Source of the DNA: Acidobacteriaceae bacterium
GTDB taxonomy: Bacteria > Acidobacteriota > Terriglobia > Terriglobales > Acidobacteriaceae
Direction of reading: 5' to 3'
Length of the DNA: 42,398 nt
NCBI GenBank assembly: GCA_025357215.1
Contig: JANXPR010000412.1
Span: 1-42,398, forward strand
Under the pieces are notes generated by a model. That model had not been told where the DNA came from. It made no database searches and saw nothing but the letters and a program-made list of their open reading frames with translations. Of the stretch, positions 17,537 to 19,758 are shown piece after piece (the first letter of the stretch is position 1; every line of letters starts with the position of its first letter). The position numbers and the translations under genes are program-made.

Positions 17537-17804
17537 GGTGGTGTTACCTTCCCTATCGTTTATTGAGCTGCGCAACCCGCTCGGCGTTTCTCATCCTGCC
17601 GGACATACAAAACTGCGCTTGCGACAGCCCCTTTTGGTTATTGGCCAGAATTGGTGTCCTCTAACTCTAGGGGCACTCCGTGGCGATGAAAAGGAGTACT
17701 TAGTACAAGGGGTAAATGGTACTTTCGTACCGACTAAGAGTACGCGGCGTCGATGGTTAGTGCAATATCGTGCGCGAGTCCCCGCTTGGGACGAAACAAC
17801 CTTT

Positions 17805-17893
17805 AGCCCGGCACGTAAGTGCCGGGACAGAAAGCGAAAAGATTCTTTCCTCGCTGCCGCAGGCCAGAGCAGAGCCGCAGGCGGAGCGAGAGT
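17805..17893 (+). repeat. Composite hairpin repeat, copy 1
   Basis: agCCCGGCACgtaaGTGCCGGGacagaaagcg...ctttcctcgctgccgcaggc...gccgcaggcggagcgagag; near-match in inverted orientation at 19781-19868. Confidence 0.75.
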
Positions 17894-17900
17894 CTAAAAG

Positions 17901-18299
17901 CTAGCGGTTCTCCTTCAATCTGTTTAGTGCGGCGAACAACGGGGCTTTGCGCTTTGAGATGCTACACTCCCGAATCCTGAAGACGCTCCACCCGAGCGCC
18001 CGAATTGCCCGGTTGTTTCGATTGTCTCTTTGCCTGTTTCGAGTCAGCTTGATTTTCCAATACTGTCGATTGTTTTTCGGTAGATGTCCATCGCCACAAT
18101 ACGGGCACCTATGCCAGAAGCACCCGTCAATGAACACGGCCGTTTTTATCTTTGGAAATGCAAAATCGGGTCGGCCGATATCCCATCCAAGGGTTCGGAT
18201 CTCGCGTAGACGTTTTTGCCAATCGTCTTGACGGGCGACGGCGCCCAATAGAAAGCGGGTCCGAAACCGCAAGGTTCGCCATTGCTTCACCTCTCCCAA
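17901..18299 (-). CDS. Vsr-like (very short patch repair-type) endonuclease; 5' end uncertain
   Basis: GRPDFAFPKIKTAVFIDGCFWHRCPYC...NNRQYWKIKLTRNRQRDNRNNRAIRALGWSVFRIRECSI matches the Vsr-family core; N-terminus atypical, with only a TTG start in this frame. Confidence 0.8.
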   Translation of the reverse strand: MGEVKQWRTLRFRTRFLLGAVARQDDWQKRLREIRTLGWDIGRPDFAFPKIKTAVFIDGCFWHRCPYCGDGHLPKNNRQYWKIKLTRNRQRDNRNNRAIRALGWSVFRIRECSISKRKAPLFAALNRLKENR

Positions 18300-18330
18300 G
18301 AGAGGATTCGACCAATACCCTGCGACTCTT

Positions 18331-18349
18331 ATGTTCTAGTTTAGAACAT
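18331..18349. promoter_or_regulatory. Inverted-repeat candidate operator between divergent genes
   Basis: ATGTTCTA-gtt-TAGAACAT: perfect 8-bp arms, 3-nt spacer; ends 32 nt before the XRE start (18382) and begins 31-49 nt before the candidate vsr-like starts. Confidence 0.6.
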
Positions 18350-18381
18350 TTTCGATCTGTACAGGCATTACTCTCTCGGTT

Positions 18382-18630
18382 GTGATCAGGAGAGTTGCGC
18401 TGAAAAACATAGTAGGCAGGCGGGTGGCTGCGGCACGCCAACGCTCTGAACCAGCACTAACGCAAGATGCACTTTCAGGGAGGCTCGCCAAACTCGGGAT
18501 TCAGGTCGACCGAGCCGCAATTGCCAAAATAGAAAATGGCCACCGCCATGTACTCGACTACGAACTTAAGGCTCTCGCGAATGCCTTAGGCGTGGATGTC
18601 AGTTGGCTTCTTGGGGACAAAAAAGGTTGA
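18382..18630 (+). CDS. XRE-family HTH regulator (82 aa, controller-protein-sized)
   Basis: VGRRVAAARQRSEPALTQDALSGRLAKLGIQVDRAAIAKIENGHRHVLDYELKALANALGVDVSWLLG: HTH_3-type domain; GTG start. Confidence 0.85.
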   Translation: MIRRVALKNIVGRRVAAARQRSEPALTQDALSGRLAKLGIQVDRAAIAKIENGHRHVLDYELKALANALGVDVSWLLGDKKG

Positions 18631-19280
18631 AAGATCCAATTCTCAAGCTACGTTCGGCTACGCGGCGGGCCAAGTCGGACGTGGCGAACAAGTTGATCAG
18701 TATGTTTCTTCATGAACTGAGTCGAAAGATCAGCCAGAGCTGGTCAGTTAAAGTTGACGGAGAGGAATACGGCAACCTTGTCCGAAAGTGGTTCAATACC
18801 CAATGCCCATATTGCTGTTGCGATCTGACGAATACCGAATCCGTAATTGAACATCTCGACGGCATGAATCGATATCGGGTCGGCCTCCATGTACCTGGCA
18901 ATGTTTTGATGGCGTGCAGAAGATGCAACAGTGAGAAACGCCGTGACGACTCATTGAGAGTGCTGTTGCTTGCTCAATCTGGGTGGGAATCGTTCTTGTC
19001 TCACGACGGCACCCGTTGCGTCACTCTCTGCCGCACATGCCGGTATTGGAGGAGTATCTGGAACGATGATATCGAACGAAGACTGCGGCTGAACGAGAAC
19101 TTGCAGAGAATTCGTTCGTTTCGCAGCGGATTTCCGGAGCTTTTGCAGGTTCTCCCTTCCTTTACACAGACGCATCCAGAGTTGTTGGGCAAACTCTACT
19201 CCGATTGTCAAACTTTTGCTGAAATGGAAACCAAGTCCCTCTTGGAAAGAGTTGATTCAGGATCCAAGCCCCAATCTTAA
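18627..19280 (+). CDS. HNH-endonuclease-like protein
   Basis: CPYCCCDLTNTESVIEHLDGMNRYRVGLHVPGNVLMACRRCNSEKRRDD: CxxC...H...N...CxxCN pattern; likely TTG start overlaps the XRE TGA (TTGA). The ORF track starts at 18603. Confidence 0.8.
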   Translation: MKDPILKLRSATRRAKSDVANKLISMFLHELSRKISQSWSVKVDGEEYGNLVRKWFNTQCPYCCCDLTNTESVIEHLDGMNRYRVGLHVPGNVLMACRRCNSEKRRDDSLRVLLLAQSGWESFLSHDGTRCVTLCRTCRYWRSIWNDDIERRLRLNENLQRIRSFRSGFPELLQVLPSFTQTHPELLGKLYSDCQTFAEMETKSLLERVDSGSKPQS

Positions 19281-19470
19281 ACTGGTTCATATCGTTGGCC
19301 AAGGAACGATCTGTCTTTTTAAATACAATAGCCCCCTTCCAGTTCAAAAACACGTAGTTTAGCTCACTGTCTATTGAATTATGTGCGCGCTAGCATGGGA
19401 TGAGGGTGGTCAGTAGTTATTTTTCATCGCTGGGTTGAACATAAACGGCGAGATCGAAGTGGATAGTGCT

Positions 19471-19758
19471 ATGACCGATCTAATTCCACCTGATGCCACA
19501 GCCGATGATAGTCCGACCAACGCTGAACGAGCGTCCTGGGCGGAAGTCGCTTTGCGGGCGTTTGGCCGTCGGACCGGAACTGTCGGAAAGAAGGTAGGAG
19601 ACGACGAGGCCCCCTATCTGATCATTACCGACCTGCTGGCGGACCTGGCGCACTGGTGTGACCGCAACGACGTTGATCTGCCGTCAGCGCTGGCGAGTGC
19701 GGCGCGGTATTACCAGGAAGAGACTGCCGGAGAAGGCAAACAGTTGGGTGGAACCTAA
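19471..19758 (+). CDS. Hypothetical small protein
   Basis: ATG start MTDLIPPDATADDSPTNAERASWAEVALRAFGRRTGTVGKKVGDDEAPYLIITDLLADLAHWCDRNDVDLPSALASAARYYQEET; well-folded composition. Confidence 0.65.
   Translation: MTDLIPPDATADDSPTNAERASWAEVALRAFGRRTGTVGKKVGDDEAPYLIITDLLADLAHWCDRNDVDLPSALASAARYYQEETAGEGKQLGGT

Follow-up and report, generated by a model that had tools for sequence, protein, structure and literature searches.

Conflict between restriction–modification (R–M) systems and modification-dependent nucleases has so far been shown in a few strains. The methylation-dependent HNH restriction endonuclease (REase) PcaRCII has been proven to clash with a resident C5 methyltransferase, and the StyLTI–Mrr exclusion offers a second precedent for such a conflict (PMC8989522). 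The R–M systems of concern here are C5-cytosine operons of the NgoMIV/NaeI type, full-length M-R pairs of which occur on Acidovorax pAOVO02 and Paracoccus pAES2. NgoMIV itself cuts GCCGGC (PMC4081073), and other relatives probably share this specificity, to judge from family membership. We describe here a nuclease cassette that lies among the wreckage of such operons, an association for which we found no description in open-access papers.

The cassette was recognised in a 42,398-nucleotide stretch of DNA from an Acidobacteriaceae bacterium, hereafter the window, with the following features:

17788 to 17890, no strand: left arm of the imperfect inverted repeats on either side of the island, an interspersed repeat found by repeat search
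17946 to 18176, minus strand: Vsr remnant, profile positions 47-123 (E=3.9e-29 in the six-frame window set), with GRPDF...DGCFWH... retained
18177 to 18254, minus strand: REase remnant of 26 residues (..ARQDDWQKRLREIRTLGWDI), matched by the L153+L075 REase profile (E=2.3e-6) and fused in frame to the Vsr remnant
18331 to 18349, no strand: palindromic operator ATGTTCTA-gtt-TAGAACAT, a perfect 8+3+8 inverted repeat upstream of the XRE gene
18382 to 18630, plus strand: XRE/C-protein-like regulator of 82 aa (Pfam HTH_3, E=9.9e-8; PADLOC control protein, E=3e-5)
18627 to 19280, plus strand: 217-aa HNH nuclease, its family unnamed, whose TTG start overlaps the XRE stop (TTGA)
19471 to 19758, plus strand: small acidic protein of the phrog_3963 family (E=1.3e-12), probable start ATG 19471, 95 aa
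19783 to 19885, no strand: right arm of the same imperfect inverted repeats, found by repeat search

The functional unit is a two-gene cassette, operator–XRE–HNH, at about 18331-19280 of the window. Its palindrome sits between a divergent Vsr-similar ORF on the minus strand and the XRE gene on the plus strand, and the G+C content around the HNH gene is 48-50%, compared with 55-60% nearby. Two features of PvuII-type C-controlled systems are present, namely a small XRE protein that overlaps a nuclease gene and a palindromic, C-box-like operator. The sequence-only reading of this DNA had already described a controller-type layout with no visible methyltransferase, and both points hold for the window; the overlap it reported between an 82-aa XRE gene and an HNH-like gene through TTGA is likewise borne out, the relatives showing that the HNH protein does start at TTG 18627. 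The small ORF that it placed after the HNH gene is also real, and corresponds to the phrog_3963 protein listed above. A protein of this family is found within about 1 kb of several cassettes, on either strand (L033, L043, L047, L048, L059 and L082), and the window's genome carries a second copy (G000, contig C338). The arms of the flanking inverted repeats are ~100 nt long, with four other partial copies elsewhere in the genome. They were considered as a mark of transposition and rejected as such, being interspersed repeats with other genomic copies and no sign of transposition.

The Vsr-similar ORF (17901-18299, minus strand) matches Pfam Vsr (E=2.1e-9) and the E. coli Vsr structures (PDB 1vsr, E=2.7e-13). 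Its earlier description as a divergent Vsr-family gene is thus right as to similarity, but this is no ordinary gene. The first 46 profile positions are absent, with the Vsr part beginning at about residue 42, and His64 of E. coli Vsr is replaced by Asp; in the closest relative, L043, the Vsr counterpart has a stop and no N-terminal half. The 26-residue REase remnant fused to the window's Vsr part resembles the C-terminal region of an HNH-type enzyme, one that adjoins a full-length methyltransferase in L153. The next best match of the L153+L075 profile in the window has E=0.39, and L045 also matches the remnant. On its sequence, the ORF is best read as debris, a chimeric leftover of an HNH-type REase and a Vsr protein. 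Elsewhere in the window's genome two other C5 methyltransferases (G000 contigs C345, locus L012, and C478, locus L013) each have a Vsr gene nearby, so this genome does have such pairs outside the window; a methyltransferase of the NgoMIV type was not found in it.

A search of GTDB genomes gave 57 XRE/HNH loci, from environmental bacteria of the phyla Acidobacteriota and Verrucomicrobiota. The majority come from metagenome-assembled genomes, with some contigs short, and the calls of orientation and of remnants rest on profiles built in this analysis. The XRE gene lies directly upstream of the HNH gene in nearly all 57, and in the closer relatives the stop codon of the one overlaps the start codon of the other. 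Most other loci also have a TGTTC..GAACA palindrome in a comparable position, the Acidobacteriota most clearly so. Distances among the HNH and among the XRE proteins are correlated (Mantel r=0.57, 0/2000 permutations), and between the window and L043 the dN/dS ratio is 0.13 for the XRE gene and 0.15 for the HNH gene. These results show that the XRE–HNH pair is a real, intact and conserved unit under selection. Of the recurrent XRE, HNH and Vsr trio envisaged from the window alone, the first two co-occur as expected, and Vsr is absent from most loci. At L033, from the same genus as the window, the HNH gene is intact, no XRE gene was detected, a frameshifted Vsr lies downstream, and the orientation is opposite to that in the window. 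An origin from a phage or plasmid was rejected, since no relatives of the cassette were found in the viral contigs or in the phage and plasmid collections searched.

The HNH site is strictly conserved. Among 47 aligned homologues the catalytic residues Glu75-His76, Asn92 and Asn101 are invariant, as are the zinc ligands Cys60, Cys97 and Cys100 and a second group of cysteines; the remaining zinc ligand, Cys63, is kept in 45 of the 47 and has been lost twice. The doubt raised earlier over whether the catalytic HNH residues would survive alignment is thereby settled in favour of an intact site. The AlphaFold model has a pLDDT of 93.4, and no fold relative was found for it below E=0.1, the best matches, Cas9 (E=0.11) and TagI (E=1.3), being weak. 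Assignment to a known HNH family was rejected on this ground, together with Pfam scores below the cut-offs and PDB sequence matches confined to the HNH core. There is a distant likeness in the HNH domain to Septu PtuB and retron HNH effectors (PADLOC, E=7e-7). Pfam detects no modified-base-binding domain, SRA or similar, in the HNH protein. A recurrent ATPase neighbour, PtuA or other, was not found beside the cassettes; their neighbours are the XRE gene and R–M remnants.

The ORFs that flank the cassettes are pieces of REases of the NgoMIV, NaeI or other HNH types, of Vsr, and of a C5 methyltransferase whose near relatives pair with NgoMIV REases. Remnants of such M–R–V operons lie within 3 kb of the cassette in 40 of 60 loci, the other 20 being without them. 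None was found in 124.5 kb of control flanks, on which ground random co-location was rejected. With profiles built from full-length systems, methyltransferase fragments were called in 19 loci, and all are N-terminal, with 20–139 codons remaining of about 320. The loss always takes in codons 140-318, and seven of the fragment ends fall within codons 119-139; the ends, spread over codons 20-139, mark no one precise insertion point, and with its C-terminal half absent the methyltransferase is not split into two flanking parts. No C-terminal half of the methyltransferase, and no intact methyltransferase of the NgoMIV type, was found at the cassette in any of the 60 loci, although intact C5 methyltransferases of other kinds lie near a few (L094). 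The possibility raised earlier, that relatives would hold a methyltransferase at the same locus, is therefore correct for many of them as regards its presence and incorrect as regards its integrity, the gene surviving solely as an N-terminal fragment. REase and Vsr pieces, for their part, as a rule keep the end distal to the cassette. The spans kept are 162-294, 75-294 and 81-294 for NgoMIV-type REases, 5-170 for a convergent NaeI, and 33-134 and 20-134 for Vsr. Near-complete REases occur in a few loci (L046, L077, L085, L087 and L093), that of L085 appearing on inspection to be without its active-site residues. The window itself has no methyltransferase fragment, only the fused REase/Vsr stub, and it is through this stub and its relatives that it is linked to a lost methyltransferase.

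Three arrangements of fragments deserve mention in their own right. In L093 (5085-7895) one cassette lies between two N-terminal pieces of methyltransferase, with a near-complete NgoMIV-type REase after them, possibly through duplication or a nested event. In L118 (3611-4105) a cassette genome, G759, shows a second N-terminal fragment that breaks off within the same stretch of codons; the contig stops right after it, where a second cassette may lie. The sole C-terminal remnant seen (codons 273-314) is in L119 (5902-6339, genome G753), where its neighbours are a Vsr gene and an HNH REase and no cassette is present.

In the window's phylum 8 genomes out of 396 contain full-length methyltransferases of this type, one further genome having a truncated copy at a cassette; the corresponding count of full-length copies in a second phylum is 19 of 328. 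Close truncated matches in both surveys sit at cassette loci (G171, and G776 and G797 of the second phylum); the second-phylum survey also gave a partial match, of 75% identity, inside a 364-aa ORF of G1002. At the full-length loci that were inspected the XRE–HNH pair was present in 0 of 24 and a recognisable REase stood alongside in 23 of 24. These REases differ, being of the NgoMIV, NaeI or other HNH types, so that the methyltransferase is the common part. Only 1 of 50 cassette genomes has a full-length methyltransferase of this type, which is not clearly fewer than the base rates of 2-6%; we therefore claim a local association solely, and not mutual exclusion across genomes. The one exception (L091, genome G795) has an HNH protein without the zinc ligand Cys63, a single case in which a binning error is possible. 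Cassette genomes do retain other C5 methyltransferases, implying that the target of the HNH nuclease is not 5-methylcytosine in general.

How often has this happened? The methyltransferase fragments group with different full-length lineages, and their descent as a single clade is rejected (AU test, p=1.2e-4, on 102 columns with modest branch support). On the HNH tree the orientation of the cassette relative to the operon flips 7 times, at least 5 of them on well-supported branches, and the REase type changes 9 times. The mixed ancestry of the fragments and these changes imply that the cassette was placed repeatedly, or that it moved among operons by recombination through their ends. In either case the data show that it has repeatedly come to lie within NgoMIV/NaeI-type C5-cytosine R–M operons, and that at such operons the C-terminal half of the methyltransferase, usually with an adjoining part of the REase or Vsr gene, is gone. 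This suggests that the nuclease and that methylation are incompatible, or that such systems are a specific target of invasion by the pair.

Our preferred reading, to which we give a probability of roughly one half, is that a Type IV-like, modification-directed HNH nuclease displaces R–M systems of the GCCGGC class by destroying the methyltransferase. The HNH protein has two features of the Type IV kind, with no partner methyltransferase and an intact catalytic site. The XRE protein would act through the palindrome as an autoregulator, keeping HNH expression low while allowing a burst in a naive cell, and the target of the nuclease would include the mark made by these methyltransferases. In a cell that holds such an R–M system, the HNH gene could then gain a foothold only if the methyltransferase were destroyed. 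The replaced part would be the middle of the operon, perhaps exchanged by recombination via the 5' end of the methyltransferase gene and the 3' end of the REase or Vsr gene, so that a single replacement would both install the cassette and remove the methyltransferase. The HNH nuclease would later restrict DNA carrying this methylation and bar the return of such R–M systems; what is left of the REase, Vsr and methyltransferase genes would decay meanwhile. Conflict alone, however, leaves unexplained why the entire C-terminal half of the methyltransferase is always gone.

That constant loss, and the clustering of seven ends at codons 119-139, are better explained if the cassette is a homing-like parasite, the main rival, which we regard as possible but doubtful. 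The HNH nuclease would cut methyltransferase genes of the GCCGGC type at a site in their conserved 3' half, and the cassette would replace them, copied into the break, by homing or gene conversion, from DNA with methyltransferase-5' and REase/Vsr-3' arms; in a naive cell XRE would let HNH expression surge and then shut it down. The occurrence of the cassette specifically at these operons in many lineages, in both orientations and with incongruent trees, is in keeping with such a parasite, as is the fact that the methyltransferase is the shared part while the REases vary. Yet the ends do not fall at a single exact codon, there is no intron or intein, and the cassette is absent from the viral contigs, phages and plasmids searched. 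Homing genes usually decay once their target is gone, whereas the HNH gene is intact and under purifying selection after the loss of the methyltransferase; this lasting selection favours the Type IV-like reading.

The weak similarity to PtuB/Septu and phage HNH proteins and the frequent turnover of R–M loci could instead point to an unrelated nuclease module, defensive or toxin-like, which ends up in R–M loci because they are recombination hot spots. We consider this unlikely, as the position is specific to one methyltransferase family found in 2-6% of genomes and is always on the 3' side of the methyltransferase. Could the pair be the C and R genes of a Type II R–M system that has lost its own methyltransferase? 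The size of the XRE protein, the gene overlap and the operator are all C-protein-like. However, none of the 60 loci has an intact methyltransferase next to the pair, the REases of full-length systems are different ones (XRE–HNH in 0 of 24), and an active, unprotected REase would be lethal, yet the HNH protein is conserved. This explanation is largely refuted already and we judge it very improbable. The sequence-only reading of the locus as an R–M remnant without its methyltransferase is thus sound in that an R–M system once stood here and its methyltransferase is gone, but not in taking XRE–HNH as the C–R pair of that system. Its other proposal, a module of two nucleases, Vsr and HNH, directed at mismatched or modified DNA, has fared worst and now seems scarcely credible. 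The two genes do adjoin in the window and in some relatives, but most loci have no Vsr, it is broken in L033, L052, L095 and L043, it lies on either side and strand, and in the window it is chimeric, so that its lack of conservation already contradicts a joint module.

If the preferred reading is true, these loci amount to a controlled comparative example of one unnamed family of nucleases repeatedly displacing one methyltransferase family in two phyla and leaving legible remains. Two questions become open to experiment: do nucleases of Type IV physically purge R–M systems, and are there homing parasites specific to R–M operons? The loci also point to GCCGGC methylation as the likely target of a nuclease family not yet characterised, and they caution against taking every XRE–nuclease pair next to R–M genes for a C–R pair.

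Finally, the cassette shares something with each of several known systems and coincides with none. As in PvuII-type C-controlled R–M systems, a small XRE gene overlaps the nuclease gene and a palindromic operator lies upstream, but no intact partner methyltransferase is present at the cassettes in 60 loci. Septu PtuB and retron HNH effectors have a distantly similar HNH domain, with other flanking domains and with an ATPase or retron partner of which no counterpart was recognised here. Like homing endonuclease genes, the HNH gene is found repeatedly in one conserved gene family with incongruent trees; unlike them, the cassette destroys its host gene, has no intron or intein and no single insertion point, and carries a nuclease that has long been under selection. 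PcaRCII, McrA and TagI are likewise stand-alone HNH nucleases without a partner methyltransferase. Their recognition domains are not detected in the window's HNH protein, and the latter is paired with an XRE protein and sits within the operon of its presumed antagonist rather than elsewhere. The NgoMIV/NaeI-type (GCCGGC) C5 R–M operons with Vsr, of which the flanking pieces are relatives, supply the remaining comparison: at the cassettes the methyltransferase is truncated wherever it is present, and the XRE–HNH pair stands in its place.
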